Assembly (NCBI GenBank): GCA_001972305.1
Contig: BDDD01001638.1
Coordinates: 128,422 to 192,421 of the forward strand
DNA from: Cephalotus follicularis
Lineage: Eukaryota > Streptophyta > Magnoliopsida > Oxalidales > Cephalotaceae
Direction: 5' to 3'
Length of the DNA: 64,000 nucleotides
The position numbers and the translations under genes were made by a program. The notes below the pieces were generated by a model, which worked only from the letters and a program-made list of their open reading frames with translations, searched no databases and was not told the origin of the DNA. Of this stretch, positions 1 to 63,932 are shown in pieces. The number at the start of each line of letters is the position of its first letter. Within the stretch, counting starts at the first letter, position 1.

Positions 1-252
1 GCGGAAGGGGGGTCCTACTGCTTAGTCAGCGGGCAGGGGCTCAGGGGTAGCGCCCCAAGAAGAAAATTGAAATTGGATATTTGTTTTTGATGAATGTCAT
101 GTTGAAAGCATCAATGGGGGTTCCGTTCCCCGGTGAGCGGAAGGGGGGTCCTACTGCTTAGTCAGCGGGCAGGGGCTCAGGGGTAGCGCCCCAAGAAGAA
201 AATTGAAATTGGATATTTGTTTTTGATGAATGTCATGTTGAAAGCATCAATC
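1..252 (+). repeat. 136-bp tandem duplication within the 5' LTR
   Basis: The text starting GCGGAAGGGGGGTCC at position 1 starts again at 137 and runs almost unchanged to about 252. The matching part of the 3' LTR (about 9690-9810) has a single copy, so the duplication arose in this LTR after insertion, or the 3' LTR lost a copy. More copies may lie left of the window. Confidence 0.9.
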
Positions 253-480
253 TCAAAGGTTAAGAGTTGACAAAGATGTCTAAAGCGCCGACGGTTCCAG
301 GTAAAGAGTCGACGCGTTGGAGGCAACCGACGATGCTCTAATTGTAAACGTCGACGCGTTGAAGTCAAGTGTGTCAGTTGACCTAGACGATACTTAAAGC
401 GGCGAGCGCTTTAGTCGGGATAGAAGTTGGAGAACTCAGGACAAGCCGTGACCGGCGACGCTTAGGAAGAAAACGTCGAC
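244..480 (+). promoter_or_regulatory. Type I GTCGAC palindrome array, 5' LTR of A
   Basis: Eight-base sites of the form GCGTCGAC and close variants (GAGTCGAC, ACGTCGAC, GCGCCGAC, GAGTTGAC, GCATCAAT) start at about 244, 264, 285, 306, 348, 452 and 473. The steps are 20, 21, 21, 42, 104 and 21 bp, mostly multiples of about 21. The function is unknown. The core resembles the CRT/DRE site of plant CBF/DREB factors. Confidence 0.7.
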
Positions 481-2268
481 GCTTTGAGCTACAGACAAAT
501 TGTAAAATATGACTTTTTGGCATTTTGTGAGTAAAAATCTTTAATTTTGGACATGTGGTAGGCCAGGGGAGGATGATTTGAGATGTTATCAGATGATCTA
601 ACAAGTGTCATCAGTTGGATTGGCTGAATTTGAGCACATGGGCTGCCAAGAGAGAGAGTTGAGTTATGTGAGAGGGGGAAAAAACTTGCCTCCCAAGTAA
701 CCATTCTATTTAATGACAAATAGGGCTGAGTTTTGTCATTTTGAATGAGAAGGAAAGTGCTCCTGCTGAGAGTGAAGTGGATATTTCATGGGAGAGCAAA
801 AAAGAAAGGAATTCTAAAGCAAAGTAAGGAAATCCAATACCCGTTTACTCCAAAATATCCCCTGTTTTACTTCCAATTTTACAGCAGATTGTTTTATTGA
901 TATCTTGCTCAATTCTTGATGAATTTTTGAATGGTTGATTGTTCTGGAAACGTTAGGATGTTCTCTTTAACTTTTATTCTTTACAGGTTTCAAGATTCTA
1001 TCTATTTCTTGACAAAAATCCAGGTTTTAAATTTCTCTTTGGGTACTATTTTATTCCTGGATTATGCAGCAACTTCTTTAAATCATATCTTGCTCATTTC
1101 TTGATGCAAAATTAAACGGTTGGATGTTTTGTAAACCTTAAGATGTCCTCTTTAATTGTTAAGTTTTATGAATCTTGAAATTCTATCGAATTCTTGATGA
1201 GAATCAATATTTCATTTTACTGCTCATGCCCTGTTTTCATATGGAACCAACCACTTTCAAAAATTCATAACGGATTCAATTCTCAACCAATTGTTATGAT
1301 TTTGAGTTTTCTGAATTCTTAAAGATGTCTAATTTAATGTTTGTGTTTTAAGTTATCTCTGAAAGTGTTTTTTCTATATGAATTATCACTTTTAGCAAAG
1401 CTATGCAAAACTGTTTTATGAACTCATTTTAGTCAATTACTCAAATGAAGAGAAAAGTTTAAGAATTGTGAAAGAAATGTTATGAAATGATTTTTATGAA
1501 TGCTTTGATCTGATCACTCAAAGTAAATGATGAATGAACTGCCCTTGGATTGCGATCCAAGGGGAATGGAGAGAGATGCTCAATGTTAATGGAGCGTAAA
1601 GTGCTCGCGGACATGCATGTGATGTAAGGATAGTAGTCGGGGAGTGCACAAAGCCTCGGTGAAGTGGTCTAAAAGGGTTCATTAAGGTTTTTATGAATTT
1701 CATGTTTTCGAAATGATCTAGTTATGATTTTAACTAGAAAAGTGATATGTTTTATGAAATGTTTTAGTCATATATGTTGACTAGAAAAAGGTTACGATGA
1801 AATGTGTTTACAGTAAAAATACCTTACTAGGCTATTTTCAGCTCATTCCTTTCGATGTTTGTTTTCAAGTAAAATGTTTTCAGGAAAGGATTAAGAGGAG
1901 AATGCGAGCTTAGAGGGAGCTCTTAAGAAGGGGTTTTTTTAAAAGAAAGGCTATGCAATAATGTTTGCATAAATGTTTTGATATGTAATAAGAATGAAGT
2001 TTTTCAGCTGTATTATATGTTTATGTTGATGGATGATCCTGTGTATATGTAGACCAATGATATGGTTATGACATCTTTACATAAGATGATTACGTGTAAA
2101 GTTTGAATTTAAGATTATGTATTATGTTGCAAGACATGAGTTTATGATGTAATGTACTTTTAGACAAGAGTACCAAAGGATGTAACGGTTCACACCCAAT
2201 GTAACGCAACCGATCCTCGGAGTTCTCTTTGAGCTATTAGCGAGCTCGGGTCAGGGACGTTACAAGAA

Positions 2269-2280
2269 TGTTATCAGAGA
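2269..2280 (+). other. Primer-binding site of element A (tRNA-iMet type)
   Basis: Four bases after the LTR end lies TGTTATCAGAGA, matching the plant initiator tRNA-Met complement TGGTATCAGAGC at 10 of 12 positions. It lies where reverse transcription would be primed. Confidence 0.8.
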
Positions 2281-2337
2281 GGTAATTGTGATACATGTTG
2301 AGGATAAGATTTGTGTATTTGCTGACCTGTTTTTTAG

Positions 2338-2724: not shown

Positions 2725-2940
2725 GGTAACGATAAGAAAGATTTTGTATAAATGTTTAAATGTGAACATGTGAAAATGTGACATAAGTGTGAAATGAAGT
2801 GTAGGAAATGTATAAAGGTCTATGAGATAAATAAAGTTGTTAGTTCCTTGTATGATCTTGAGCATTAGAATTAAACTGCTTTAACTAGCATATGAGTAGA
2901 ATTGCTTAAGATTAAGAACTAACCTATGGATGCTAACTAG

Positions 2941-3990
2941 ATGGCCGATGCGAGGAGAGGAAGAGGACAAAGAAGAAACGAAAATGCACAAAACAACGAG
3001 AATGATAATTCGCTGAGTGCGATTTTAAACAGATTGACTCAAGTTATTGCCGACAACAATGGCAATAATCATCAAGAGCATCCACCCTCATGACCGACGC
3101 TAGAGCAGTTTGCGAGGCACAATCCAAAAATCTTTTCGAGAACAACCGATCCTTTGGAAGCGGAAGCCTGGATCCAAGGGAACGAGAAGATTTTTAGAGT
3201 GTTGGATTGCACAGACTGACAGAAAGTAGTGTTTTCAATATACAAGTTAGATGGAGAGGCGGATCAACGGTGGTGTATGGTTGAGAGAACCAAGACCCGT
3301 CGAGAAAGAGAAGTGATGACATGGTAAGGATTCAAAGGAATATTCATGGACAAGTACTTTCCACAAGCCATGAAAGATAAAATGGAGGAAGATTTTCTCC
3401 AACTGGAACAAGGTGAGTCTGAAACAGTGGCTCAATATGAGGCAAATTTCGCAAGGATGTCCCGGTACGTAACTCATCTAGTGTCCATAGAAGAGAGAAG
3501 GGCTACTATATTTTCTCATGGTTTGAAGCCTTATATCCGAAGGCTGGTGATAGAAAAAGACCTGTAGATGTACGACGCAGTTTTGAGGTGTGCATTGAGA
3601 ATTGAAATTGATAGAAAAAGATATCAGCAAAAACATATGGAGTAGGGACACGGGAAGAGAAAGGATGGCGAATCCTCCGATAACAGCAAGCATAAGAAAG
3701 CAAGGTCCGATGGAGGACAGGACTAAAAAATTTGTCAAGGATGTGGGAAAAGACACCGTGGGAAATGTTTGTATAGGACGAGAGTTTGTTACAAATTTGG
3801 AAAGCAAGGACACCAAGCTAAAGAGTGTCAACAACGACCAAACAAAGCCCAGAATCAAAGGACGATCATATGCTACAACTGTGGACAGGAAGGTCACATG
3901 TCCAAGCAATGCACCCAACCAAAGATGGGNAGGGAAGGGAGCCCGACAACAAAGAGCACCAGCAAGAACCTATGCCATGACTGCTGACGA
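2941..3990 (+). pseudogene. gag: gag of element A (capsid and nucleocapsid), disrupted
   Basis: Gag forms the particle that packages the RNA. The frame starts at ATG 2941 with a basic Arg/Gly-rich stretch, then a capsid-type domain typical of plant gypsy gag (about 3100-3620, including FPQAMKDKMEEDFLQLEQGE). Three cysteine clusters follow: CQGCGKRHRGKC (about 3736-3771), CYKFGKQGHQAKEC with Phe in place of the second Cys, and CYNCGQEGHMSKQC, an intact CCHC knuckle. Six in-frame stops are visible: 3091, 3217, 3325, 3565, 3643 and 3724. The frame must shift by one near the ambiguous base N at 3930 to meet the protease. Gag and pol are normally one frame in this lineage, so this is decay or an unresolved base. 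Confidence 0.88.
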
Positions 3991-4487
3991 GGTGGAAAAT
4001 CCCAATGATGTGGTGACAGGTGTTTTTCCCGTATGCTCTAAATCTGCATATGTATTGTTTGATACGGGAGAGACGCATTCTTTTGTGTCTTTATCTTTTG
4101 CACGATGTTTAAGTACCCCATTACAAGATTTGGAGATAGGTTTAACTGTCGAAACCCCAAGTGGTAATACCTTGATGGCAGACAAAGTATATAAGTCTTG
4201 TGACCTAATATTATGTGATAGGATGATGCTATTAGACTTAGTACCTCTAGCAATCCTAATGTTTGATGTCATACTAGGCATGGATTGGCTTTCGGCGAAT
4301 CATGCTAGTGTTGACTGTTTTAAGAAGGAAGTTAGGTTTGCTATACCAGAACAACTTGAGTTTGTTTTCTGAAGCATGGGAGCCAGCTAACCCTTAAAGA
4401 TCATATCGTCGATGCAAGCTAAGCGATTGTTGAAAAAAGGATGCGAAGGCTATCTTGCCTATGTGATGTATACCGATAAAGAGAAGA
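3990..4487 (+). pseudogene. pol: Aspartic protease of element A
   Basis: This pepsin-like protease would cleave the Gag-Pol polyprotein. The active-site motif LFDTGETHSF is at about 4058-4087, with Asp-Thr-Gly intact. The second signature DVILGMDWL is at about 4266-4292. Stops at TGA 4370-4372 and a TAA shortly after break the link to RT. The open frame otherwise runs to 4487, where a solo LTR interrupts it. Because the LTR plus its 5-bp duplication totals 2115 bp, a multiple of three, the frame resumes unchanged at 6598. Confidence 0.88.
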
Positions 4488-6597
4488 TGTAATGACCCAA
4501 GTTTCTATGTAAGATATTATTTATGGAATATGATTGCTATTGCGTATATTGGCAGATAGTTTAAGGGACCCGTAGTATGACCCTACGCTCGGGGAGTACG
4601 GGGGTTCCACTTAAAGCGCCGACAGTTACACTTAAAGCGCCGACGCTTTGGGTAAGAGTCGATCTCCTATTTTTAAACGTCGACGCGTTGAAGTTATATG
4701 TGTCAGTTGACTTAAAGCGTCGACGCCTTGGTATAAAGAGTCGACGCTTTAGTCGGGATAGAGGTGAAAAACTCAGGTAAAACCCTTAAGCGCCGACGCT
4801 TAGAAGGAAAGGGTCGACGCTTTAGCTACAGACAAAAGGTAAAATCTGACTTTTTGGCATTTTGTGAGTAAAATTCTTTTATTGGGGACATGTGGCAGGC
4901 CAGGGGAAGATGCTATAAGGTGATATCTGGGGATCTAACAAGTGCAACACTTGGATTGGTTAAATTTTTGTCACATGGGGAGAGAATTAAGTGTGTGAGA
5001 GGGGGAAGAAACTTACCCCATAAGCCATCCTTCTATTTAATGGCAAAGAAGCTTGATGTCAGTCAATTTGAGCTGAGAAAGAGAGTAATTCTGCTGTGAG
5101 TGAAGTGGAGAAATTGTGGAAAGCAATAGAGAAAGTAATTCTAAAAGATAAGGTAAGGAAATTCTTTACCCATTCTTTACAAAGCATCCCCTGTTTTGTT
5201 CTTAATTTTACAGCAGATTCTTTTATTGATAACTTGTTCAATTCGCAATGGATTTTTGAATGGTTGGATGTTCTGGAACTTTAGAATGTCCTCTTCAACT
5301 GTTATGCTTTGAATGTTTCAAGATTCTATCGTTTTCTTGATGAAAATTTATGTTTTAAAACTGCTGTTTGGGTACTGTTTTATTCATGAATTATGCAGCA
5401 ACTTCTTTAAATCACATCTTATTCGTTTCTTGATGAAAAATTAAATGGATGGATGTTTTGGAAACCTCAAGATGTTCTCTTTAACTGTTATGTTTTATGC
5501 ATCTCTAAATTCTATCGAATTCTTGGTGTAAAGCTATATTTTCTTCCACTGCTCATGCCCTATTTTGTTATAGAACCAGCCACTTTAAAAAATTCATATA
5601 GGATTCAATTCGCAACCAATTGTTATGATCTTGAGCTTTCTGAAATATTCAAGATGTCTAATTTAATGTTTATGTTTTGAGTTTTGTCTGAAAATGCTTG
5701 TTTCTATATGAATTATCCGTTTTCGCAAAGTTGCGCAAAACTGTTTTCTAAAGATTTTTTTGAGTTAATTACTCAAATGAAGAGAAAAGTTTATGGATTG
5801 TGAAAGAGATGTTATGAAATGATTTTTATGATTGCTTTGAGCTGATCACTCAAATTAAATGATGAATGAACCGCCCTTGGATTGTGATCCAAGGGGAATG
5901 GAGCGAGATTGCTCAAAGTTAATGGAGCCGAGCGTGCTCACGGACATGCATGTGATGTAAGGATAGTAATCGGGGAGTGCACAATGCCCCGGTGTAGCGG
6001 TGTAAAGGGTTCATTAAGGTTTTTATAATGTTTATGTTTACGAAATGATGTAGTTATGATATTAACTAGAAAATGATATGTTTTACGAAATGTTCTAGTT
6101 ATATATACTTTGGCTAGAAAAATGTTATGATGAAATGTGTTTACTATAAAAACACCTTACTGAGCTATTTTGAGGTCATTCCTTTCAATGTCGTTTTCAA
6201 ATAAAATGTTTTCAGGAAATGAATGAGTGGAGAATGCGAGCTTAGAGGAAGCTCTTAAGAAGGAATTTTTGAGAAACGAAGGCTATGCGATGATATTCGC
6301 ATTATGTTTCGTTATGTAATAAGAATAATGTTTTTCCGCTATAATATGTGTTTATGTAAAAGAACGATCCTGTGTAATGTAGACCTATGATATGGTTATG
6401 ACGTCCTTTTATAAGATGACTATGTGTAAAGATGAATTGAAGATTATCTACGATTTTACAAAGACGTGAATTTATGATGTTATGTACTTTTAGAAAAAAA
6501 AAGTACCTAAGGATGTAACGTTTCACACCCAACGTAACGCAACCGATCTTTGGAGTTTGCTTTGAGCTTAAAGTGGACTCGGGTCGGGGTCGCTACA
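4488..6597 (+). mobile_element. Solo LTR nested in pol of element A
   Basis: This 2110-bp LTR starts TGTAATGACCC and ends GTCGCTACA. It is the same family as the LTRs of A but visibly diverged. The five bases before it (4483-4487) and after it (6598-6602) are both GAAGA, a perfect target duplication. There is no internal region or second LTR, so it arose by insertion followed by LTR-LTR recombination. Confidence 0.95.
4616..4824 (+). promoter_or_regulatory. Type I GTCGAC palindrome array in the nested solo LTR
   Basis: Sites start at about 4616, 4637, 4656, 4677, 4717, 4738, 4790 and 4811 (GCGCCGAC, GAGTCGAT, ACGTCGAC, GCGTCGAC, GAGTCGAC). The steps are 21, 19, 21, 40, 21, 52 and 21 bp, close to two helical turns or multiples. 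Several are full palindromes of the form GCGTCGACGC. Confidence 0.75.
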
Positions 6598-8161
6598 GAA
6601 GATCAGGATAGAAGAATTACATGTTGTTAAGGAGTTCATTGATGTTTTCCCTGAAGATTTACCTGGTATGCCACCGGATCGAGAAGTGGAGTTTACAATT
6701 GACGTGGTATCGGGAACAGCTCCTATTTTGAAGGGCCCTTACCGCATGGCAGCAGCTAAGCTGAAAGAGTTGAAGGATCAATTACAAGAGCTTTTGGATA
6801 AAGGATTTATCCGACCGAGTGTATCACCATGGGGTGCACCGATACTATTTGTGAAAAAGAAGGACGGGACAATGAGACTCTGCATAGACTACCGAGAGTT
6901 GAATCAAGTCACCATCAAGAACAAGTACCCACTACCAAGGATTAACGACTTGTTTGATCAACTCAAGAATGCTCGATACTTCTCGAAGATTGATCTTTGA
7001 TCGGGCTACCATCAAGTGAAAGTCAAGAAAGAGGATATACCTAAAACTGCTTTTCAGATAAGATATGGACAATACGAGTTTTTGGTGATGTCGTTTGGAT
7101 TAACAAATGCTCCAGCAGTGTTTATGAGTTTGATGAACAAGATCTTCAGTGAATTTTTGGATCAGTTCGTTATAGTCTTCATTGATGACATCCTAGTATA
7201 CTCAAAGAGTATAGAGGAGCACGATGAGTAATTAACCTGTGTATTACAGATACTGTAGAAGGAGCAGCTCTATGCTAAGTTCAGCAAATGCCAGTTCTGG
7301 ATGGAAGAGGTATCCTTCTTGGGACATGTGATCACATGGGAAGGTATATCGGTAGATCGCGCCAAGATGGAGGCAATAAGAGAATGGCAGAGACCTACCT
7401 CAGTAGCCGAGATACGGAGTTTTCTGGGACTAGCAGGCTATTATCGAAGGTTTGTTGAGAATTTCTCTCGTATTGTGAACCCACTCACAAGGTTGATGCA
7501 GAAGAATGTAAAGTTTGAGTGGTCTGACCAATGCGAGAAGAGTTTCTTGGAGTTGAAAGAAAGACTGATGAATGCCCCGATATTAGCATTACTGATGGAA
7601 TCAGCAAGTTTTGTGGTGTATAGTGATGCATCTCACAACGGACTTGGTTGCGTGCTAATGCAACAAGGAAAAGTGATTGCCTATGATTCCAGACATCTTA
7701 AAGCACATGAACAGAATTATCCTACGCATGATTTGGAATTGGCCGCAGTTATCTTCGCGCTAAAGATTTGGAGACACTATCTATATGGAGTGAAGTGTGA
7801 AATCTTCACCGACCAGAAAAGCCTCAAGTATATTTTCACCCAAAAGGAGTTAAACATTAGGAAAATGAGATGGTTAGAGCTTATCAAGGATTACGATTGC
7901 ACCATTCAATACCATCCAGGTAAAGCGAATGTTGTGGCAGACGCCCTAAGTCAAAAAAGTATGGGGAACTTGGCTATGATGATCACTACACAGGAAGAAT
8001 TGATAAGAGATTTCCAACGAACGAACTTGGAAGTGATAAGACCAGGAGGAGGGGTTTCCCTATTTCAAGTCATAGCACAACCTTCTCTAGTTGAGAGAAT
8101 AAAGCAAAGTCAGTTTGAGGACTTGGAATTTAAGGAGATAGCAGAGGGGGTAAGGAATTGA
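6598..8161 (+). pseudogene. pol: Reverse transcriptase and RNase H of element A
   Basis: RT makes cDNA from the element RNA and RNase H removes the template. The region opens with the linker ending FPEDLPG, then RT with [16 protein letters not shown] (about 6853-6903) and the catalytic FIDDILVYS (about 7178-7204), both aspartates intact. The RT connection [14 protein letters not shown] is followed by RNase H with [17 protein letters not shown] (about 7613-7663) and the tail [14 protein letters not shown]. One frame spans the stretch but holds stops at 6998, 7229, 7256 and 8159. The first fits CGA to TGA in the conserved DLRSGYHQ context. The reading order and motif spacing are otherwise full length. 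Confidence 0.93.
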
Positions 8162-9523
8162 AAAGTATCACGCTTGAACTTGGGAGCTGACAACGCATTG
8201 AGATTTGATACAAGATTATGCGTTCCAGCTAAGGTAGAATTGAAAGAGGAACTAATGACGGAAGCACATAGTTCAAATTTCTCAGTACACCCTGGAAGTA
8301 CAAAGATGTGTAGAGAATTGCGAGATCTCTATTGGTGGAATAATATGAAAAGAGAAATTGCGAACTTTGTGTCAAGATGTCTTGTTTGTCAACAAGTGAA
8401 AGCTGAGCATCAGTTGCCGAAAGGAACCTTACAGTCGCTTCCCATACCGGAATGGAAGTGGGAACATATCAGCATGGATTTTGTAACCGGACTTCCAAGA
8501 GCAGCCAAAGGGAATAATTCTATATGGGTGATTGTGGATCGATTAACGAAATCGGCTCATTTTCTACCAATCAAAGATAGTCATTCATTGAGTCAATTGG
8601 CAAGGGTATATGAACAAGAGATCATCAGACTACATGGTATACCAGTATCGATCATTTTGGATTGAGATCCCCGTTTCACATCACGCTTTTGGAAGAGTTT
8701 ACAGAATGCTTTGGGTACAAGGTTGATTTTCAGTACGGCGTACCATCCGCATATAGACGGACAATCAGAACGGACTATACAAACATTGGAAGACATATTA
8801 CGTGCTTGTGTAATAGATTTTCAAGGGAATTGGGAGCAACATGTCACTCTGATTGAGTTTGCCTACAACAACAGTTTCCAAGCAAGTATACAGATTGCAC
8901 CTTTTGAAGCACTTTATGGACGAAGATGTCGAACGCCTATCTGTTGGGAAGACGTAGGAGAATGGAAGTTATTGGGACCAGAAATATTACAAGTAACTAC
9001 CAAAAAAGTAAAACTGATTCGGAAACGCCTCTTAATGGCCCAACGTAGACATAAGAGCTACGCAGACAAGAGACGGAGAGAACTACAGTTTAAAGTGGGA
9101 GATCATGTTTTTCTCAAAGTATCGCCATGGAAAGGAGTAAGCTGGTTTGGCAAGAAGGGAAAGCTTAGTCCCCGATACATTGAACCATATAAGATTTTAG
9201 AAAGGATAGGAGAAGTTGCGTATAGGCTTTCCTTGCCACCAAGTCTATCTCATGTACACAAGATATTCCATGTATCGCTACTACGGAAATATATGGCCAA
9301 CCCATCTCATGTTCTAAGAGTTGAGCCTATTCAAGTGCATGAAGACTTGTCATACAATGAGCAACCAGTGGAGATCCTGGATTACAAAGAAAAAGTCATG
9401 CGGACCAAGACCGTTCTGTTAGTAAAAGTTTTATGGAAAAACCACGAAGTTGATGAAGCCACCTGGGAATTGGAAGACACCATGAGACAAGACTACCCTC
9501 ATCTTTTTAAGTTTAATGTATAA
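8162..9523 (+). pseudogene. pol: Integrase with C-terminal chromodomain of element A
   Basis: Integrase inserts the cDNA into the chromosome. The HHCC zinc domain is at about 8262-8395 (HSSNFSVH ... CLVCQQ). The core has SMDFVTGLP (first Asp), a damaged second-Asp region around the stop at 8663, and DGQSERT with the catalytic Glu at about 8765. The GPY/F-like module [18 protein letters not shown] is at about 9157-9210. The last 55 residues ([20 protein letters not shown], then [13 protein letters not shown]) are a chromodomain of the kind thought to steer chromoviruses toward heterochromatin. The only stop is TGA 8663-8665, consistent with CGA to TGA; the normal stop follows at 9523. Confidence 0.93.
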
Positions 9524-9561: not shown

Positions 9562-11846
9562 TGTAATGACCCAAATTTCCATTAAATATATTAATTATGG
9601 AAATATGATTTTTATTGTGTAAATTGGCAAATATTTCAAGGGACCCGTAGTATGACCCTACGCTCGGAGGGGGGGTCGAGGGTTCCGCTCCCTGGTGAGC
9701 GGACGGGGTGTCCAGCTGCCCGGTCAGCGGGCAGGGGCAAGGGGGCAGTGCTCCCGGAAGAAAATTAAAATTGGATATTTGTTTTGGATGAATGTCATGT
9801 TGAAAGCGTCAATCTCAAAGGTTAAGAGTTGACAAAGATGTCTAAAGCGCCGCCGGTTCCACGTAAAGAGTCGACGCTTTGGAGGCAACCGATGACGCTC
9901 TAATTGTAAACGTCGATGGGTTGAAGTCAAGTGTGTCAGTTGACCTGGACGAGACTTAAAGTGGAGACGCTTTGTAAGAAAGATGTTAGCGCTTTAGTCG
10001 GGATAGAAGTTGGAGAACTCAGGACAAGCCGTGATCGGCGACGCTTAGGAAGAAAACGTCGACGCTTTGAGCTACAGACAAATTGTAAAATCTGACTTTT
10101 TGGCATTTTGTGAGTAAAAATCTTTAATTTTGGACACATGGCAGGCCAGAGGAGGATGATTTAAGATTTTATTAGATGATCTAACAAGTGTCATCACTTG
10201 GATTGGCTGAATTTGAGCACATGGGCTGCCAATAGAGGGAGTTGAGTTATGTGAGAGGGGGAGAAGACTTGCGTCCTAAGTAACCATTCTATTTAATGAC
10301 AAAGAGGGCTGAATTCAGTCATTTTGGCTGAGAAGGAAAGTGCTCCTGTTGAGAGTGAAGTGGATATTTCGTGGGAGAGCAAAAGAGAAAGAAATTCTAA
10401 AGCAAAGTAAGGAAATCCAATACCCATTTTCTCCAAAGTATCCCCTGTTTTACTTCCAATTTTACAGTAGATTGTTTTACTTATATCTTGCTCAATTCTT
10501 GATGAATTTTTGAATGGTTGAATGTTCTAGAAACGTTAGGATGTCCTATTTAACTTTTATGCCTTACAAGTTTCAAGATTCTATCTATTTCTTGACGAAA
10601 ATACATGTTTTAAATTGTTGTTTGGGTATTGTTTTATTCCTGGATTATGCAGCAAGTTCTTTAAATCATATCTTGCTCATTTCTTGATGAAAAATTAAAT
10701 GGGTGGATGTTTTGAAAACCTTAAGATGTCCTATTTAACTATTATGTTTTATGTATCTCGAAATTCTGTCGAATTGTTGATGAGAATCAATATTTCAGTT
10801 TACTGCTCATGCCCTATTTTCATATGGAACCAGCCACATTCAGAAATTCATAACGAATTCAATTCTCAACCAATTGTTATGATTTTGAGTTTTCTGAATT
10901 CTTAAAGACGTCTAATTTAATGTTTCTGTTTTAAGTTATCTCTGAAAATGCTTATTTCTATATGAATTATCAGTTTTAGCAAAGCCATGCAAAACTGTTT
11001 TATGAACTCATTTGAGTCAATTACTCAAATGAAGCGAAAGGTTTAAGAATTGTGAAAGAAATGTTATGAAATGATTTTTATGAATGCTTTGAGCTGATCA
11101 CTCAAAGTAAATGATGAATGAACCGCCCTTGGATTGCAATCCAACGGGAATAGAGCGAGATCTCAATGTTAACGGAGCGTAAAGTGCTCGCGGACATGCA
11201 TGTGATGTAAGGATAGTAGTCGGGGAGTGCACAATGCCCTGGTGAAGTGGTGTTAAAGGGTTTATTAAGGTTTTTATGACTTTCATGTTTACGAAATGAT
11301 CTAGTTATGATTTTAACTAGAAAAGTGATATGTTTTATGAAATGTTTTAGTCATATATGTTGACTAGAAAAAGGTTACGATGAAATGTGTTTACAGTAAA
11401 ATACCTTACTGAGCTATTTTGAGCCCATTCCTTTCGATGTTTGTTTTCAAATAAAATGTTTTCAGGAAAGGATTAATAGGAGAATGCGAGCTTAGAGGGA
11501 GCTCTTAAGAATGAGTTTTTGTAAGAGAAAGGCTATGCAATAATGTTTGCATAAATGTTTTGATATGTAATAAGAACGAAGTTTTTCTACTATATTATAT
11601 GTTTATGTAGAAGGATGATGCTGTGTATATGTAAACCAATGATATGGTTATGACATCTTTACATAAGATGGTTATCTGTAAAGTTTGAATTTAAGATTAT
11701 GTATTATGTTGCAAGACATGAGTTTATGATGTAATGTACTTTTAGAGAAGAGTACCAAAGGAAGTAATGGTTCACACCCAACGTAACGCAACCGATCCTC
11801 AGAGTTCGCTTTGAGCTATTAACGAGCTCGGGTCGGGGACGTTACA
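9562..11846 (+). repeat. 3' LTR of element A
   Basis: This 2285-bp LTR starts TGTAATGACCC and ends GACGTTACA. It is the only complete LTR of the element itself and can be compared with 1-2264 for relative dating. It lacks the 136-bp duplication of the 5' copy. Confidence 0.93.
9806..10063 (+). promoter_or_regulatory. Type I GTCGAC array, 3' LTR of A
   Basis: Sites start at about 9806, 9826, 9846, 9868, 9910, 10035 and 10056, with steps of 20, 20, 22, 42, 125 and 21 bp. They match the 5' LTR sites one for one, with point changes such as GTCGAC to GTCGAT at 9910. Confidence 0.7.
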
Positions 11847-17634: not shown

Positions 17635-17735
17635 CCGTTGACGCTTAGGAAAGAAGCGTCGACGCTATAGATTGTTATACGGAGAATGAGTCCTGGTTCA
17701 CGATAAATGTCGACGCTTAGAGATAACGCCGATGC
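17635..17735 (+). promoter_or_regulatory. Type I GTCGAC sites, 5' LTR of C
   Basis: CCGTTGAC at 17635, GCGTCGAC at 17656, ATGTCGAC at 17707 and ACGCCGAT at 17726 form two pairs with inner steps of 21 and 19 bp. The second pair is repeated in the 3' LTR at about 23440-23470; the first is decayed there. Confidence 0.65.
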
Positions 17736-17817
17736 TATGATTTATTGTGTGTTAGAATGGATCATTGTGAGTTGTGGCTTTGTTTTGCTGCAGTTTTTCT
17801 GCACTGTCTGCAGAATC

Positions 17818-18105
17818 CAGCTGACTGTCCAAGAGGACAGTCGACTGCTCGAGTGCGCCAGTTGACTGTTCAGTACGAATACTCAACTACTCATGGATCC
17901 AGCCGACTGTGCTTGGGAGCCAGTCAATTGTCCATGTGTGTTACTGAGAAATGCCTGCAGAGGCTTGAGTAGCTGACTGTTGTAGGCCAGCGGCCGACTG
18001 TTGGGTATAAACCGCCGACTGTCGAGTGTGGGCAGCCGGCTGCCAGTTTAGGACAATCGACTGTTGAAGGAAAACAACCGACTGTCAGCGAGGGACAATC
18101 GATTG
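17818..18105 (+). promoter_or_regulatory. Type II CAGCCGACTG array, exact 21-bp phasing
   Basis: Ten-base sites CAG(T/C)CGACTG and variants start at 17818, 17838, 17859, 17881 (weak), 17900 and 17921, then at 17970, 17991, 18012, 18033, 18054, 18075 and 18096. The last seven are exactly 21 bp apart. The 11-bp spacers between them show no clear resemblance, so this is not a simple recent tandem duplication. Most sites contain the CRT/DRE core RCCGAC or its RTCGAC variant. Confidence 0.85.
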
Positions 18106-21933: not shown

Positions 21934-24750
21934 TGTAACGCCCCGAATTTCATAAATAATTATTATGAAATTGGTTCTTGTACAGTTGCGATAAAATCGA
22001 TAGAGGCCCGGAGTAATAAAAAGGCATTACGCATTTAAGCCGTAATCGTGTTGGCCAAAACGGCTAATGAAGCCTATTTTTAATGCGTGACAATAAAGCC
22101 CAAATGCTCGCAATATTATTGCGATTATTTTGGTGGTCGTTTGGATAATTTATTTCGCGATTGACGGATAAATTGAGACCCAGACCTTAGTATTTTGCCA
22201 GTAAATACTAAAGAGAAAGCAAAAGAATAAAGGAGGGGAGAGAGGGACACAGGCGCATCACGCGCCCATGCAAAAGGAAGGCAGCGGGCTCTCTGTGCGC
22301 CCGCGCCAGAGAGAGAGCGAGAGAGAGTGGAAGAGAGATCGGAGCAGAGGGAGAGAGAGCGCGCCGGAGCCAGCCACCTGATCGGGAGAGCACGCCGGTC
22401 AACCCAGGCACACCAACGGACGGTAACTCCTCCTTCTTTCTTCTCTTTTCTCTTCTTTTTCTTCTCCTCTGTCGCCACTGTCGCGCCTCTTCCCGGCATT
22501 TTCGGGCACCGTTAGCGTCACGGATGGCGTGGGTTATGGTGTAGAAGGCCCGCTCTACCCATTTCGACCACCGGTGAGGCGTGATTCGGCCGAAAACGGC
22601 CGAAAACAGTTGACTGAGTCGACTCAGGGAGTGGACTCATTGTCTCCATAGACGGCGCGTTTGGCGCCGAGTCTCGGCGAGTCACGGGCAGTGACGTGTA
22701 GGACTAGTGAATGTGTGGCATTTTTGGGTGGTGACCGGACCTATTGAGGTCCGGCGAGTTGACTCAGTGAGTCGCAACTCACTGCCGGCTGTGGCGGGGC
22801 GTTCGGTACCTATTCCCGGTGAGTCTTGACCGGTTTTGAGTAGACCGTTCAATGTGGAACCCGTTGATGGGTGTTTCGTGAGCTGGATGAGTCGGCCGGA
22901 TTCCGGTCGGCGTTTCGGCGATGGCAATGCTTTGTGCGTTGATCGTAATGGAAATGTGTTGTATGTGCAGTGGGCGAGTGGCAATTGGATTGGCAGTGAG
23001 GACTTGATCGATTGGCAAGAATAGGGTTCGGTTCAACGGTTTTGAAAAGGTTCGGCAATTGAACCTACGGCTCGACTGTGCTGGTGATACTGTGATTCCT
23101 AACTTGGAATCAAAGGTAGGGGATGTTATAAATGTGGTTTGAGTTCAATTATAATAAATGTTCCTTGATGAAATGCGTGCATATCGTGTCTTGGAATGAT
23201 TGTGGGCTGTGGATTGTGATTTGTGTGATTGTGTTAGGGTTGCTATGAATAGTTGACCCGTCATGCATATTGTATTTTACGATGATTGTAGATCGGATTG
23301 CATGTGTTGTATGCCTTGAAATCGATCGGTTTTGATACGTGTTGAAGGAACCATGTTTTGGTTCGCTTAACCGTTGAGGCTTAGGAAAGAAGTATTGACG
23401 CAATAGATTGTTATACGGAGAATGAGTCCTGGTTCGCGATAAATGTCGACGCTTAGAGATAACGCCGATGCTATGATTCGTTGTGTGTTAGAATGGATCG
23501 TTGTGAGTTGTGGCTTTGTTTTGCTGCTGTTTTTCTGCACTGTCTGCAGAATCCAGCTCACTATCCAAGAGGACAGCCGACTGCTCGAGTGCGCCAGTCG
23601 ACAATTCGGTATGAACAGCCGACTACTCATGGATCCAGCCGACTGTGCTTGGGATCCAGTCGATTGCCCATGTGTGTTACTGAGAAATGCCTGCAGAGGC
23701 TTGAGTAGCCGACTGCTGTAGGCCAGCGGCCGACTGTTGGGTATAAACAGCCGATTGTGAAGGATGACAGCCGACTGTCGAGTGTGGGCAGCCGACTGCC
23801 AGTTTAGGATAGCCGACCGTTGAAGGAAAACAACCGACTGTCAGTGAGGGACAACCGATTGTTTGTGTCTGTCTTGCATTGTGGGCATGTGTATGCATCT
23901 TGTACTGTGATGAACTGTGATTTTTGACTGAGTATTGTTGATTGTCAATTGCGATTTGTGACTGTATATTGTTGATTGTGAAGTGTGAATTATGACTGAG
24001 TATTGTTGATTGTGAACTGTGGTGAACTGATTGTGCATCGTGATAACTGATTGTGAACTGTTGTATTATCCTTTGGAAGTGCATTCATGATCATTATAAA
24101 TAATTACTTTACGAGAAAATGTATGTTTCAAACAAATATATATTTTCAAAGGACTGTGAAAATGGCTTCCAAACATCGTGAACTGAGATTTGTAACATCG
24201 TGAATCGAGAACCGTGACATCGTGAAAATGAGTTTGTTTTCAAGTATTTTGTTTTATAAATTACTTGGAAAACTGTTTTGAGCATCGAGATGACTGTGAT
24301 TATGATTGAGCTTGACTGTGATTGCTGATTGTGATTGTGATTGTGACCGTACTAGTTGCGTGGCGGAGATGCCAGTGATGACTAGTGGTCGGGTTGATTT
24401 CAGATTGATTTCAGGTTGATGCAGCGGATTGTTACCGTTGAGCTCCGTGGAGGAAAGTGGAGTTATGTTGTTTTACTTTTGAGAAACGTTATTGGATCAT
24501 TGTAATAAATGAATCAATGTATTGATGAATATTGTTCACGCTCCGTTTAAGGGCAGTTAACTTTGATGATGTTTATTGTTGTAGCATGTAGTATGGGATG
24601 CATGTTATGTTTTAATTCGGCTTATATTTAAATGCTTCCGCAAGTTGTTAATGGCTATGTAAAGTTTTAAATTTATGGTAAATTGCGTAAGCCGAATTTA
24701 TATGTTGATTGCCACCACTTTTATTATTGTTATGGGAATGGGGTGTGACA
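21934..24750 (+). repeat. 3' LTR of element C
   Basis: This 2817-bp LTR has TGTAACGCCCC...GGGTGTGACA termini. Compared with the 5' LTR it has lost about 370 bp after GACTAGTGGTCGGGT (near 24395) and has one extra 21-bp unit in its type II array. Confidence 0.93.
23553..23861 (+). promoter_or_regulatory. Type II CAGCCGACTG array, 3' LTR of C
   Basis: Sites start at 23553 (weak), 23574, 23595, 23616, 23636 and 23657, then at 23706, 23727, 23748, 23768, 23789, 23810, 23831 and 23852. The steps are 20-21 bp inside each block. The second block has eight sites against seven in the 5' LTR; the extra one is at 23748. Confidence 0.85.
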
Positions 24751-44100: not shown

Positions 44101-46971
44101 TGTCACACCCCGTTTTCGACAAACGCACATAAAGGTGGTAAAGGCAATTAACATTAAGGTTCAGCTTATGCAGTACCATAAAATTTAAACTTTTCAAATA
44201 ACACATCAGTTGCGGAAGCATCAAAACTCATAAGCTGAAAACACGTAATGTGCATCCCATACTGCATGCTACTCAATACAAACCTGTCATTGTTAAAAGC
44301 GCAAAAAATGGAGCGTGATCATAAAACATTAATAAACCCCATCGTTAAACAAATCCAAAAGTACGGTACATCAGTATTCAATAAAGCAAAACCAGTTTAT
44401 TAAAATCCAAAAGAACATAATACCATTAACAACATAAAAGCTTGTTTTTCGTCCCTGCTGGTCCAACACCGGTCCATTGCATCAATCTATAAAGTAGGGG
44501 GTTAGCCTTTTTCCTTACTCGGCTAAGTCATAAAAGTAGTTTGGGGTCAACATTGCATGCATGTCATGAAATGTATACATAGATGATGCAGTGCAGTAGA
44601 AAACACCACTTTATATATATAAATATATGAAAATATATATACTAGCAGTACAGTAAAATAATAGTAGGGATATATATATAAAAACATATGTATGCAGTAA
44701 AAGTACAGTAGTAGCCCAGCCAGGGCTACATCAACAGGAACAGTAATGTCTGAACAGGACCAGTAAACAGTACAGTATGTCCACAAAGGGACCACAACAG
44801 GCAGGCAGGATGTGTAACGCCGCCAACTCCTGGCCGCACGTTACACTCCCACTTCGGTTCCAACTCCAGGCAACCATGCAAGACAACAGTACAGTACATT
44901 GAGTTACCCAACCCACTCCTGGCTCCTAGGTGAACCCTGCCACTAGCCGGCGCTGGCAGTCTCCGCCATGTAACTAGTGGTTCAAGCACAGACACAGTAA
45001 ATTCACAGAGCAATCAGTGAATAATCGCAGTAAACAGATCAGTAGTGATCGTTAGATCAACATCAGGCAGTTTATTTCAAATTGTTTTTGAAAGTCATAA
45101 ACATTTGAAATATGTATTTTCAGCAGTGGAAAATACTTTTAAACAGTTCAGTAGGTGAAAATTGCTTTCCAATATGTTAAAAAATATACAATACTCATTT
45201 TATATTTTCGTACTCGACATAGTAGTTTACAACTCATATATGCATTTCTAATGTAACAATACTTAGAAATCATAATCAATTTATAAACAGTCAATAAACA
45301 GGCAGTAAACAGTACATATGCAAAGCATACAAATGCTCGAATGCATCATAGGCAAAATCGGGGTTGTCGGGTATCAAAATTGTGAAAATTGTCCAAATAG
45401 GACCCTAAAGCGTCGACATTTATTCCTCAGGCGTCGACGCTTATGTCCTTTAAGCGTCGACATTCAGTCCCATAGCGTCAGCGCTTTCAGTGCCTGGGCG
45501 TCAATGTCACCTTCCATAGACGTCGACATTTAAAACGCATTAAACATATAAAACGCAGTTCACAATACTAAGCGTCGATGCTTACCAAAGGCGCCGACGG
45601 TTTCAAGCAGCAGTCGTCTTCTTCGTCACGACATCACCAAACTGTGACATTTCCACAACAATAGCATGCAATCCAACATGTATAAAGCCTAGAAAATCGA
45701 CATGCCACATCATATTACACATCCAGTACAACATAGCATCATGTCAGTGATAAAAACAGTTCAACCGGCCATGTAATCTATGCATAAACATCACTAAACA
45801 AACACCAATCATTGAACACAAAATACAATTATAGCTTCCCCTACCTCTGATTCCAAGTTATGAATCGCAGTAGCAACAGCACAGTCAAGCCACAGGTTCA
45901 ATTTCGAACCTTTCCCAATAACCTTTGAACCGAGCCTGGTTCTTGTCGATTGATCAATTCCTCACCGTCAAATCCAATTGCCACTCACACATTGCACATA
46001 CAACGCATTTCAATTATGCTCAACATATAAAACATTGCCGTCACCAAAACGCTGGCCGGATTCCGGCCAACTCATCCAGCTTATGAAACACCCATAAACC
46101 GGTTCCCCATTGAACGGTCTACATAGAACTGCTCAAGACTCGCCATGAATCGGCGTCGAACCCGGCGCCATGGCGGGCAGCGAGTTGCGACCCAAAAATG
46201 CCACACATTCACCAGTTATACATATCTCTGCCTATGATTCTCTGAGACTCGGCGCCAAACGCACGGTCTCAGGCGGTAGTGAGTCGACTCAGTCGACTGA
46301 TTCCGCCCGATTCCGGCCGAAATACGCCACACCGGTGGTCTAAATGGATAGAGCGGGCCTTCTAGATAAAAACCCCTTCCATCCGCGACGCTAACGGCGC
46401 CGAGAAACGCCTGCAAATGGCACACACAGTGACTGCAGAGGAGAAGAAAAAGAAGAAAAACGGGAAGGGGAAGGAGGAGTTACCGTCTGTTGGCGTGCCT
46501 GGGTTGACCGTCGTGCTCTCCCAGTCCGATAGCTTGCTCCAGCGTCCTTTCTCCTTCTCACTCTTAGTTTCTCTCCAGATCTCTCTTTCTCTCTCTGGTG
46601 CGGGTGCACAAAGTGCCCACTGTCTCCTTTCTTGCACAAGAGTGTGATGCGCCTGTCTCTCTCTCTCTACCTTATAACATTTGTTTCCCCCTTAGTAATT
46701 TCTGGTAAAATACTAAGGTCTGGGTCCAGATTTTTCCACAAACCGTGACATAAATTATCCAAATAGCCACCAAAATAATTGAAATAATAATGCGAACACT
46801 AGGCTTTATTGTCGCGCATTAAAAATAGTCTTTATTAGCCATTTTGGCCAACATAATTACGGTTTAAATGCGTAATGCCTTTTTTATTTCTTCGGGCCTT
46901 TATTCGTTTTATTTACGATCGTACACGCACCAATTTCATAATAATTATTTATGAAATTTACGGGCGTTACA
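44101..46971 (-). repeat. 3' LTR of element F
   Basis: On the plus strand it starts TGTCACACCCCG and ends GGGCGTTACA, 2871 bp. Its inner parts match the LTRs of C in reverse, including the GA-rich tract (46430-46680) and GAGTCGACTCAGTCGACTGA at 46271. It has a type I array but no type II array. Confidence 0.92.
45410..45600 (-). promoter_or_regulatory. Type I GTCGAC array in the F LTR
   Basis: Plus-strand site starts are 45410, 45431, 45454, 45475, 45498 and 45520, with steps of 21, 23, 21, 23 and 22 bp, then 45572 and 45591. Sites read GCGTCGAC, GCGTCAGC, GCGTCAAT, ACGTCGAC, GCGTCGAT and GCGCCGAC. Confidence 0.8.
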
Positions 46972-55271: not shown

Positions 55272-55400
55272 CATTCCCGCAAAAAAAAATCCTTCTAAAA
55301 AGATCAGGTACTCGATAAAAAGGTCCTATAGAACGTTCTAACACGTGGAAAAAGGATGGCTAGTTGTCGTGAACACGTGGCAGAAATCTGGATAAGGCAA

Positions 55401-55810: not shown

Positions 55811-55942
55811 CAGCCGACTGCCAGTGGGAGGCAGCCGACTGGATCCCTTGCTGAGGCGTGGCAGCCAGCTGCCAGGAGGAGGCAGCCGGCTGGTGGGAGT
55901 GTCGGCAGAAACAGCCGACTGCCAAGGCAAGGCAGTCGACTG
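55811..55942 (+). promoter_or_regulatory. Type II array, upstream block of solo LTR
   Basis: CAGCCGACTG-type sites start at 55811, 55832, 55862, 55883, 55912 and 55933. The steps are 21, 30, 21, 29 and 21 bp, about two and three helical turns in alternation. Confidence 0.8.
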
Positions 55943-56468: not shown

Positions 56469-56777
56469 CAGCCGATTGCCCACCTTGGGCAGTCGACTGC
56501 CTATAGGTCCAGCCGACTGTTCTAGGGAGGCCAGTCGACTGCCCGTGTTTGTTTCTAGAAAATGTCTGCAGGGGTTGTGTAGTCGACTGTTGTAGGTCAA
56601 CAGCTGACTGTGGGGGTGTGGACAGCCGACTGTCCTGAGGGCCAGCCGACTATCGATGGTGGGCAGCCGACTGTCTGTGTAGACAGCCGACTGCCTGGTT
56701 GTGTAGCCAGCTACCTGAGAGTGGCAGCCGACTACTTTGAGGGGGACAGCCGACTGCCAGTGGTAGGCAACCGACTG
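56469..56777 (+). promoter_or_regulatory. Type II array, downstream block of solo LTR
   Basis: Sites start at 56469, 56490, 56510 and 56532, then at 56580, 56601, 56623, 56643, 56664, 56684, 56704, 56725, 56747 and 56768. The steps are 20-22 bp inside each block. The gap between blocks is 48 bp, as in C (49 bp). Spacers differ from those in C. Confidence 0.85.
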
Positions 56778-57985: not shown

Positions 57986-58413
57986 CTAAGCCTTACAATC
58001 CGACCTCCCTCAAACATATCGATTTCATACCGAGTTGTCTTGCACCTTCGTTGTGCTCAGATGAGGAAATTCTAAGTCCTTAGAATTCGAACTACATCAA
58101 ACATCTCGGTTTCATTCCAAGATATCTTGAACCATCGTAGTTCTAGGATAGGAAAACTCTAAGCCCTTAGCATCCAAGTTGCATCACACATATCGATTTC
58201 ATTATGAGTTGTCTTTCACCTTCGTCATGCTCGAATAAGGCAATTATAAGGCCTTTGAATCCGAGCTACATCAAACATCTCGGTTTCATACCGAGATGTC
58301 TTGCACCTTCATAATGCTCGAATAAGGCAACTCTTAACCCTTAGAATCCGAGTTGCATCAAACTTCTCGGTTTTATATTGTCTAGCACCTTTGGAATGCT
58401 CGGATGTAAAAAA
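57986..58413 (+). repeat. 86-bp minisatellite, second block
   Basis: Units start at about 57986 (remainder of the split unit), 58070, 58157, 58244 and 58331, with periods near 87 bp. The array decays after 58414. With the first block there are about eight units. Confidence 0.9.
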
Positions 58414-58629: not shown

Positions 58630-58631
58630 CT

Positions 58632-61389: not shown

Positions 61390-61650
61390 CATGCGACCCT
61401 TTTCCAATAATCAGGTGGGACCCGAAAGCCCGGTGGAATTCTGGTACGATGATAAATTTTTCAGAACATCCCAGAGTTCTGGTACGACAATCTAGCTAAT
61501 AGCCCCGGTGTGATCATAATCACCCTCGAATTCATGGACCAAAAATTACCACGTCTATCATTCGTTAGCCGGTTCTTCAGTGCTTTATCACAGTCATTGG
61601 TTTGCGTGCTGGGTATCCTTCGTCATCTCGGCTCCTACCACGGACTAGGA
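61390..61650 (-). repeat. Copia D LTR fragment, minus
   Basis: It matches 14958-15200 of the D1 LTR in the same orientation (for example ATCAGGTGGGACCCGAAAGCC, CCACGGACTAGG). It is cut at 61651 by the next LTR. Confidence 0.75.
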
Positions 61651-62865
61651 TGTCACGCCCCCGTTTTGAGAAGACATCATTAAAGCAATAAAGGCAATTA
61701 ACAAATAAATTCAGCTCATGCAAATACCATAAAATTTAACTTATAAACAAGAGATCAGTTGCGGAAACATAAGATTCATAAGCTGAAAACTCGTAACGTG
61801 CATCCCATACTACACGCTACTTAACACAAATCCGTCATTGTTAATAGTCCACAAAACGGAGCGTGATCACAGTACAATATTCAATCCCATCATTAAACAA
61901 AACCATAAATACAACACGTAGTAGTCCTTAAATAAAACTCGGTTTATTACAAAAACATGAGAAAAAGTAAAACCAAGAACAAAACAACATAATATCTTGT
62001 TCTTCGCCCATGCCAGTCCAACCGGTCCACTGCATCAATCTGTAAAGTAGGGGGTTAGCCTTTGTCCTCACTCGGCTAAGTCATAAAAGTAGCTCAGGAT
62101 CAACAACAAATGCATGTCATGTAATGTATGCATAAATGATGCAGTGCAGGAAATACCAGTTTATATATATATGTGAAAAATATATATATATTTTGCAGTA
62201 CAGTAAAATAATAGTGGGTACATATATAAGGAAATATATGTAAACAGTAACAGTACAGTAGTGATCCGGCCAAGATCACTTCCATAATTAGAGTAATGTC
62301 CGAAAGGACCAACACGCAATACAGTATGTCCATAAGGGACCACAACAGTCAGGCAGTATATGTAACGCCGCCAACTCCTCGCCCCACGCTAGACTCCCAC
62401 TTCGGTCCCTGCTCCAGGCAACCAAGCGAGGCAACATTACAGTACAGTGAGTCACCCAGCCAACTCCTGGCCCCTAGTTCAACCCTACCACTAGCTGGCG
62501 CTGGCAGCCTCTGCCATGCAACCAGTGGTTCAAGCACAACCACATAGAAATTCACAGAGCAAACAGTGAATCAAACAGTAAACAGTACAGTGGTGATCGT
62601 TTAGATCGACAACAGGCAGTTCATTTTCAAATATTTTTGAAAGTAGTAACCAATACATATTTTCATATTCAAAATAGGACACTCCGAGTTCACATGAGCA
62701 ATTCTAAACATCACAACTTTAGAAATCATAAACGATTTACAAACAGTAACCAAACAGGCAATAAACAGTGTATATGCAATGTATACAATTGTTCTAATGC
62801 ACTCTAGGTGAAATTGGGATCGTCGGGTATCAAAACCGTAAAAACTGTCGAAACAGGACTCTAAA

Positions 62866-63054
62866 GCGTCGACGTTCATTCCTTAGGCGTCGACGCTTAT
62901 GTCCCTTAAGCGTCGATGTTTAGTCCCTTAGCGTCAGCACTTTCAGTGTCTAGGCATCAATATCTCCTCCCTTTAGACGTCGACGTTTTAACGCTTTCAA
63001 CATATAAAACGCAGTTCACAGTATTAAGCGTCGACGCTTACCCAAGGGCTCGAC
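62866..63054 (-). promoter_or_regulatory. Type I GTCGAC array in the right-edge LTR
   Basis: Site starts are 62866, 62887, 62910, 62931, 62954 and 62977 (steps 21, 23, 21, 23, 23), then 63028 and 63047. The pattern and spacing match the F LTR site for site, though the spacers have diverged. Confidence 0.8.
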
Positions 63055-63834
63055 GGTTTCACGCAGGGGTCATCTTCCACCTCATGACAGGAGGAAAACA
63101 GTGACATTCACATGGCAGTAGCATGCAATCCAACATATCTGAGCCCAGAAAACTGGCATGCAATAGCACATCATACATCCAGTATAACATAGCAACATTT
63201 CATTGATCAAAAACGGTCCAACAAGCCATGCAATCTATGCAAAACATTACTGAACAAAACATCAATTATTGAACACAAAATACAATTATGGCTTCCCCTA
63301 CCTCTGGCCTCAAGTTAGAAGCCGAAAGTCCACCTCTTTTAGTATCCAACCAGTCACTTTGAGCTCCCAGGTACGGTTGAAAGTTCCCTGGTTCGTCCCA
63401 GCAGTGGGTGTGCAAGCTCCAACCTTCCTTTGCTCAACAATGGTGGTCTCTCTCTCTCTCTTTCACTCTCTTTTACTCTCTTTGTCACTCACAGTGTCAC
63501 TAATTCCTCTGGCTTTCAGTAACAGATGAGAGGGGTGAGAGGAATCGACTTTTTCTGCAGATTTCGTTGTGCCTTCTCTGCATGTTCTCCTAACTTCTTT
63601 TCCTCTCTTGAACTGGCAGCCTGGTGCAACAGGTGCCCAAACCTCCCCTTTCACAGGCCATGCACTCAGAGGTTGTCCCTCTGTCCCATGCCCTTTTGTT
63701 GTAGGTAATACTGGCATTAAGGGCATGCCTGCCACGTTCTTAAAGTGCCTACTACGATGCTTGAAAAGTGTCACAAAATCACCTCCCTGCGACATGTCCA
63801 TCTGCTGTTATGTGTATGCAGAACACACCTCAAA

Positions 63835-63932
63835 GCGTCGACGTTTACATGCAGGCGTCGACGCTTATGTGTTTAAATTTAAACTCGCGTTTCAATCGCT
63901 TAAGCGTCGACGCTCCAAATCTAGGTGTCAGC
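63835..63932 (-). promoter_or_regulatory. Second type I block in the right-edge LTR
   Basis: GCGTCGACG at 63835 and 63855, GCGTCGACGCTC at 63904 and GTGTCAGCG at 63925 have steps of 20, 49 and 21 bp. It occupies about the position that the first type II block occupies in the solo LTR at 55667, counted from the LTR start on the minus strand. Confidence 0.75.

Follow-up and report, generated by a model that had tools for sequence, protein, structure and literature searches.

The question raised by a 64,000-base stretch of the Cephalotus follicularis genome (contig BDDD01001638.1, positions 128,422 to 192,421; hereafter the window) is why long terminal repeats (LTRs) of unrelated retrotransposon families carry clusters of one short palindrome, with GTCGAC or GCCGAC at its core. 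The clusters are probably arrays of cis-regulatory binding sites, predicted from sequence, that serve one factor family and are akin to the repeated motifs (RMs) of Sireviruses. An earlier note on this DNA had estimated roughly forty GTCGAC words in the window where base composition would give about ten, and both figures hold: GTCGAC occurs 42 times, against 10.2 expected from composition and 5.9 from a second-order Markov model, and GCCGAC 32 times against 5.2 under the latter. That most of these words lie inside clusters stands for LTR-like stretches, as 30 of the 42 GTCGAC fall within eight such stretches chosen by hand (17,982 of 64,000 bases), less so for strict pairs, as 14 of 42 have a GTCGAC, GCCGAC or GTCGGC partner at 20-22 bp. 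The same partners are found at this distance for 87 of 141 GTCGAC in tiles of another contig, C1, and for 6 of 16 in five other stretches, whereas at 30-32 bp the counts are 0/42, 4/141 and 0/16, respectively. Across the whole genome (1,577,397,061 bases in 9,746 contigs), GTCGAC totals 849,481 and the reversed control word CAGCTG 231,366, and pairs at exactly 21 bp number 105,145 for GTCGAC versus 1,224 for the reversed word. Uniform placement predicts ~457 GTCGAC pairs per spacing (arithmetic from the word total), and the observed means are 628 at 11-18 bp (5,024 over eight spacings), 1,260 at 31-38 bp (10,082 over eight spacings) and 9,910 at 28-29 bp (19,820 over two spacings). Pairs at 21 bp are 167 times as frequent as those at an average spacing between 11 and 18 bp. 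Chance origin is ruled out by the Markov expectation and the genome pair counts, and the palindrome-array system is real, strong and genome-wide in this species.

The palindrome exists in four versions, designated CA (CAGYCGACTG), GC (about AAAGCGYCGACGCTTT), AC (about AAAGACRTCGAYGTCTTT) and GCGTYRACGC, the last found at loci L035, L037 and L038. Among 130 non-redundant GTCGAC sites, the dyad flanks are CA..TG in 42, GC..GC in 18 and GA..GC in 7; the version-specific flanks CA..TG, GC..GC and AAAGAC..GTCTTT are all dyad-symmetric. Variation of the core follows RYCGAC in three versions (CA, GC and AC), while GCGTYRACGC is mostly devoid of a CCGAC or TCGAC core. Asymmetric sites are never mixed in direction: all 14 phased arrays with at least two GCCGAC or GTCGGC, a set that includes LTR copies, point one way, and the GCCGAC direction agrees with that of the element in T1, T3, T6, W1 and W2. 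L037 and L038 hold GTTGAC as well as GTCAAC, so the GCGTYRACGC version is not one-way. The CA version occurs in the copia elements T1 and T3 and in the gypsy elements T2, T4, T5 and W2; the GC version in copia L033, gypsy W1 and gypsy-type W4; the AC version in copia T7 and L032 and in a gypsy-type LTR nested in T4. Each of these three versions thus spans the copia/gypsy divide, which is new here. Among the papers listed by literature searches, none dealt with palindrome arrays common to copia and gypsy elements, and none with GTCGAC palindromes in LTR retrotransposons. The arrays of the window are the following.

287..480, plus strand: GC-version array with sites at 287, 308, 350 and 475; host LTR about 118-2268, the 5' one of the gypsy element W1
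4618..4818, plus strand: GC-version array of 7 sites (starts 4618-4813; steps 21, 40, 40, 21, 52, 21), in an extra W1-family LTR at 4612-6597
9870..10063, plus strand: decayed GC-version array in the W1 3' LTR, reduced to exact sites at 9870 and 10058
17658..18040, plus strand: a pair of GC-version sites, then a CA-version array (starts to 18035), in the 5' LTR (16211-19367) of W2
23445..23817, plus strand: CA-version array of 9 phased sites and one GC-version site (starts to 23812), in the 3' LTR (21937-24750) of W2
45412..45598, minus strand: GC-version array (starts to 45593), in a gypsy-type LTR stretch at 44101-45860
55813..55940, plus strand: CA-version array W5a (starts to 55935), recognized by site pattern
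56492..56754, plus strand: CA-version array W5b of 10 sites (starts to 56749), with spacers homologous to those of W2, recognized by site pattern and spacer comparison
62868..63035, minus strand: GC-version array (starts to 63030), in another copy, at 61651-63317, of the LTR family seen at 44101
63837..63911, no strand given: GC-version sites at 63837, 63857 and 63906, recognized by site pattern

The LTRs of W1 (118-2268 and 9680-11850) match at 91.9% and enclose a gypsy pol, with a chromodomain match below cut-off. W2 is a non-autonomous gypsy-type element, in which the LTR is followed by TGGTATCAGAGC and a gag trace remains at 19752-19880. The LTR stretch at 44101-45860 is probably the family that the earlier note had called copia D1. 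A copia origin lacks support: the copies at 49925 and 61651 start with TGTCACRCCCC, the reverse complement of a gypsy-type LTR end, TGGTATCAGAGC in reverse complement stands ahead of the former, and the sole copia coding trace found in the window with 13 query proteins lies at 33611-33835. Tandem arrays of an 86/87-bp unit flank the W5 palindrome arrays (window 55390-55666 and 57986-58377). For a gag ORF of the window, all four protein hits at E 1e-10 or better are from Cephalotus follicularis (65-72% identity).

The carrier elements were assessed on 16 LTR pairs picked by hand, 12 in the C1 tiles and 4 in the window, and phased pairs are present in both LTRs of eight of them (T1-T7, W2). Internal regions are devoid of phased pairs in 11 of the 16, the exceptions being T1 and T3 (array before an open reading frame, ORF), W1 (extra LTR), and T4 and W4 (nested LTRs). 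Gypsy coding sequence lies between the array-bearing LTRs of T2 (C1:66362/73096), T4 (168030/178592), T5 (184062/190085) and W1, and T6, W2 and W4 are gypsy-type by their LTR end and TGGTATCAGAGC primer site. On the copia side, two features place T3: an AGGGGGAG-AT-TG junction of Sirevirus type and, as judged by eye, the tail of a copia pol. T1 is assigned through its PF20167 ORF and its spacers, which are homologous to those of T3; T7 and L033 through a copia gag between array-bearing repeats; and L032 through a copia reverse transcriptase before its ORF. The copia gag between the T1 LTRs may be a nested T7-like piece, because C1:5076-7196 matches T7. LTR identity of the carriers ranges from that of W1 to 99.0% (T2). 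Site numbers per LTR reach 11 and 10 in T1, 15 and 14 in T3, and 12-13 in T7, and the gypsy elements T2 and T5 have arrays of 4. The sites occupy positions 183-606 of a 1,221-bp stretch in T3 (which begins ~15 bp before the LTR) and 166-557 of 1,152 in T7. In the T1 LTR the last site is at 529 and a TATA at 579, i.e., 44 bp past the array; in L033 these are at 480 and 557.

The LTR nested in T4 (C1 about 172182-175205) resembles that of W2 (82% over the first 1.2 kb, 73-89% near the end) and that of W4 (70-73% to either side of the array zone). The array zone of these related gypsy-type LTRs holds the CA version in W2 (window 21937-24750), the AC version in the T4-nested LTR and the GC version in W4 (window 44101-45860); the version can therefore change within a conserved LTR backbone. 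The three LTRs offer a natural case of array replacement. The AC array inside T4 is not a Sirevirus piece, since it sits in this nested LTR. Nested Sirevirus LTR pieces were likewise rejected as the general source of the gypsy arrays: only 3 of 66 masked-spacer comparisons are clearly homologous (T1-T3, T2-T5 and W2-W5; z over 20). Eight further comparisons give z of 3.1-5.1, and in two of them a Sirevirus array is set against W2 or W5 (z 3.1, reached by 1-2 of 100 shuffles), so that an old exchange of arrays between Sirevirus and gypsy-type LTRs may have taken place.

Spacing was analyzed over 314 kb, comprising the window, C1:1-200000 (one contig end) and five other 10-kb stretches. Among 150 non-redundant adjacent steps of up to 100 bp, 77 measure 20-22 bp, while four control word sets give 14, 0, 0 and 0, the set with 14 overlapping the GC version. 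The nine arrays of the window counted here, all those listed above but the decayed one at 9870, have 47 steps, 23 of them at 20-22 bp, in line with the step of about 21 bp noted earlier, 6 at 40-43 and 6 at 48-52 bp. Thirteen non-homologous array representatives behave alike (48 steps: 22 at 20-22, 6 at 40-43, 5 at 48-52, 3 at 27-30 and 12 others), and their vector strength peaks among the tested periods at 10.25 bp (0.70; 0.64 at 10.5 bp), against a null maximum of 0.42 (at 10.5 bp, 2,000 draws). The 40-43 bp gaps usually hide a decayed site, because 18 of 22 have their best partial match at +20 or +21 (tied in 1, elsewhere in 3); in the 48-52 bp gaps (n=16), a partial site at a constant place was looked for and none was seen. 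The steps are 21, 21, 50, 22, 21, 20, 42, 19, 50, 20, 84, 21 in the T7 LTR; 22, 49, 22, 48, 22, 21, 21, 48, 42, 20, 42, 19, 52, 19, 84, 20 and then 147 in the homologous L032 stretch; and 143 followed by 21, 51, 21, 49, 41, 22, 40 in the L035 LTR stretch. One spacing set thus recurs in these three LTR stretches with different motifs; the ORF-upstream arrays of L035 and L037 show less regularity, with steps of 19-62 bp. This common set of ~21, 41, 50 and 84 bp, less often 28, is new with respect to the known Sirevirus motifs. As to the 28-bp class, many of its spacers among the matches listed hold a central CAACACG or CACGTG-like word (C1:67028-67061, C1:476189-476222, C4:611711-611744); it may contain the site of a second factor, family homology not being separated among those spacers.

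Conservation of the sites was examined by pairwise comparison of array regions, with 23 rows above the score cut, 17 between elements (about ten family pairs) and 6 between LTRs of the same element. Between elements, site identity exceeds spacer identity in 17 of 17 rows (e.g., 0.975 versus 0.687, and 0.967 versus 0.729). The six same-element pairs, which diverge only after insertion, have sites above spacers in two (by 0.007 and 0.004), equal in one and lower in three, the largest deficit being that of the old W2 (0.833 versus 0.957). Such a deficit is the pattern expected of CpG decay, and a site excess between elements without one inside them is predicted by selection on active lineages together with neutral decay of inserted copies.

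Arrays recur at a second place, upstream of the envelope-like PF20167 ORF, in six of the eight loci examined (T1, T3, L032, L035, L037 and L038). Of the other two, L036 is without upstream DNA and L039 has been split by the insertion of a gypsy LTR that bears CA arrays; as this inserted LTR adjoins the ORF, the CA array beside the type-3 ORF of L039 is not a mismatch between motif and protein.

T3: array C1:159091-159153; ORF frame 159183-160430
T1: array C1:7492-7667; open frame 8148-8882, start missing
L032: array 3824-3978; ORF 4326-5519
L035, L037 and L038: GCGTYRACGC arrays before the ORF, the last two loci 91% alike

Where an LTR stretch is seen (T1, T3, L032, L035), it carries the same version as the ORF-upstream array. 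A TATA follows the latter in L035 (at 1177, where the final ORF-upstream site starts 38 bp earlier) and in L037 (1201); by the patterns used, none follows it in T1, T3 or L032. PF20167 frames are very numerous in Cephalotus: a genome search gave 13,073 first-look candidates, and all 150 rows scored were above cut-off, 30 with an internal stop and ~120 without. An envelope-like ORF of contig C1 is 100% identical to the Cephalotus protein CFOL_v3_00005 over 83% of its length. The proteins fall into three types, types 1 and 2 being 22-24% and 32% identical to type 3, respectively.

The layout resembles that of the Sirevirus RM, described as palindromic boxes in high copy with one version per element (Bousios et al. 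2010, PMC2829016). In the excerpts of that paper, the boxes cluster in the upper LTR half before the TATA and again upstream of the ENV-like gene, are absent from classic copia elements, and gypsy elements appear only in the background and discussion. In Cephalotus, at least eight palindromic boxes per element are present in T1, T3 and T7, the cluster lies in the upper LTR half in T3 and T7, and extra copies precede the ENV-like ORF in the six loci above. The Vitis RM CGGTCGACCG given there equals CAGTCGACTG but for two transitions. However, the Cephalotus cores are GTCGAC, RTCGAC or GTYRAC in place of the CGG-CCG of the RM (which, in the same excerpts, Tnd-1 also lacks), the arrays are found in Ty3/gypsy elements as well (gypsy pol in T2, T4, T5 and W1), and they follow a phased spacing set of which no description was found in the excerpts of PMC2829016. 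With an array in the LTR and before the PF20167 ORF, in some families ahead of a TATA, the Sirevirus copia array most likely drives both promoters. The dyad is short, with a GTCGAC core, and within the window it reads CAGYCGACTG or about AAAGCGYCGACGCTTT. We propose that its repetition at a fixed set of spacings would place factors bound to neighboring sites mostly to one side of the helix, able to touch one another, and that several element families may have converged on, or exchanged, the use of the same trans-acting factor family. The sharing is suggested because gypsy-type LTRs carry the same three versions with unrelated spacers, and because the version switches in a homologous LTR; protein binding, activation and a single factor family behind all versions are what we infer from it. 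A regulatory code of motif and spacing would then be common across the copia/gypsy divide within one genome, which would imply that much of its mobile DNA answers to one family of trans-acting factors, and two questions, the partner of the Sirevirus palindrome and the role of the plant "envelope-like" gene, would merge into a single binding question.

Several points weigh against this proposal. Six of the 16 LTR pairs are without a phased pair in either LTR and two (W1, W3) have them in one only, W3 with a single phased pair, and the W4 array lies outside the stretch counted in this tally. In T4, a gypsy element, GCCGAC points against transcription. Downstream of the array, a strict TATA pattern was found neither in T3 nor in the LTRs of the gypsy elements T2, T4 and T5, except for one match in T5 far downstream, near the end of the stretch. 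Vector strength is also high at 24 bp (0.65) and 7 bp (0.60), because few step lengths dominate, and alone is therefore no proof of helical phase. The over-represented 28-29 bp steps (~2.7 turns) fall off the helical phase; the array sites thus lie mostly on a common helical face, this class excepted, and not every one of them as the earlier note had supposed. The conservation excess is partly ascertained, because sites were found by pattern and anchor alignments, the LTR copies are not independent in the comparisons, and 200 of the 314 kb scanned come from one contig end. The regulatory array that the earlier note had inferred in unrelated LTR families is nonetheless supported by its place in LTRs, the TATA of T1, the conservation of sites beyond spacers and the absence of tandem duplication.

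As to the nature of the factor, the arrays might be cold- or drought-responsive enhancers gained by several LTR families and read by a host CBF/DREB (AP2) activator, as the earlier note had it. RYCGAC is the CBF core, the C-repeat/dehydration-responsive element (CRT/DRE) is the element of the CBF/DREB regulon, and ONSEN LTRs carry heat elements, a precedent for stress sites in LTRs. The RYCGAC variation in three of the four versions and the one-way direction of all 14 asymmetric arrays fit such a directional reader, yet this identity is unlikely: the flanks are dyad-symmetric and differ by version, which is no part of a DRE, the arrays are phased and hold up to 15 sites, and the GTYRAC version, with the same LTR spacings in L035, mostly does without the RYCGAC core. 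A factor encoded by the elements themselves is another candidate, and a doubtful one. By analogy with foamy virus Tas, or with VANC in VANDAL elements, PF20167 could be a trans-activator or anti-silencer with sequence specificity instead of an envelope. It would bind and oligomerize on the phased palindromes, activate the LTR and the internal promoter of its own gene or lift their silencing, coevolve with the motif and be parasitized by gypsy elements; the regulator of one element family would then run much of the mobile DNA of this genome. Besides the arrays before its ORF, matched in version to those of the LTR, the pairing of three protein types with three motif versions argues for it, similar proteins sharing a version (T1-T3 60%, L035-L037 75% alike), although a co-variation drawn from three types could be plain lineage divergence. 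The ratio of nonsynonymous to synonymous substitution is 0.13 for L035 versus L037 (0.52-0.97 among young copies, with synonymous divergence saturated for T1-T3), and no hydrophobic N-terminal window was found in any of the seven sequences with a known start, but inner windows reach 1.6-1.7 (Kyte-Doolittle) in 3 of 12 rows, compatible with a membrane segment. A DNA-binding fold was not found: the two structure models have predicted local distance difference test scores of 37.7 and 55.0, a fold search with the second returned nothing below E 1.9, and sequence searches gave no solved structural relative up to E 1. Moreover, ENV-less Sireviruses also bear LTR motifs, according to Table 3 in the excerpts of PMC2829016. 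A foamy virus offers a likeness of layout, its Tas/Bel1 response elements lying in the LTR and an internal promoter (PMC517496, in part), as the Cephalotus sites do in the LTR and upstream of a 3'-proximal ORF.

Readings that dispense with a bound factor fare worse. Neutral minisatellites grown by tandem duplication of a 21-bp unit would account for the constant step, and Tandem Repeats Finder reports a few short runs, but neighboring 21-bp spacers match at 3.5 of 11 positions versus 3.16 at random (12 pairs). Spacers therefore do not align across units, whereas alignment is what the earlier note had named as the sign of plain duplication, and between elements it is the sites that are conserved and not the spacers; this origin is contradicted and can be given almost no credit. 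That the palindromes act by forming hairpins in RNA or DNA, or by being targeted by small RNAs, is very unlikely, since a fixed 21/50-bp spacing and one-way asymmetric variants would not be expected of hairpins, even if small RNAs are in excess on Sirevirus palindrome clusters (Bousios 2016, as cited in the excerpts of PMC10760457).

The arrays may also be targets of a VANC-like protein, the main alternative of the earlier note, and can be set beside the VANC targets of VANDAL elements. Both have dense one-way motifs in non-coding element parts with a family-dependent motif, whereas the Cephalotus carriers are retrotransposons and not DNA transposons, and their spacers are not repeats. VANC, an element-encoded protein that recognizes its motif and strips methylation, bears DUF1985, which has no match in the Cephalotus genome, nor in the control genomes. 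In the excerpts of PMC5735166, VANC target motifs are short, of one orientation and family-specific, and evolve by tandem repeats. Del LTRs, in the excerpts of PMC4029996, bear CpG islands, with none in the eudicot group.

An Rfam scan gave no match at gathering threshold, a tRNA search none, and viral contigs no match to one CA-version pattern. Another GTCGAC palindrome, TGAGTCGACTCA-like, lies off the 21-bp grid at window positions 16883, 18637, 22618, 46283/46292 and 57219, and GTCGACTCGCTGAGTCGAC, with a 13-bp step, recurs genome-wide among the matches listed for pairs at 11-18 bp.

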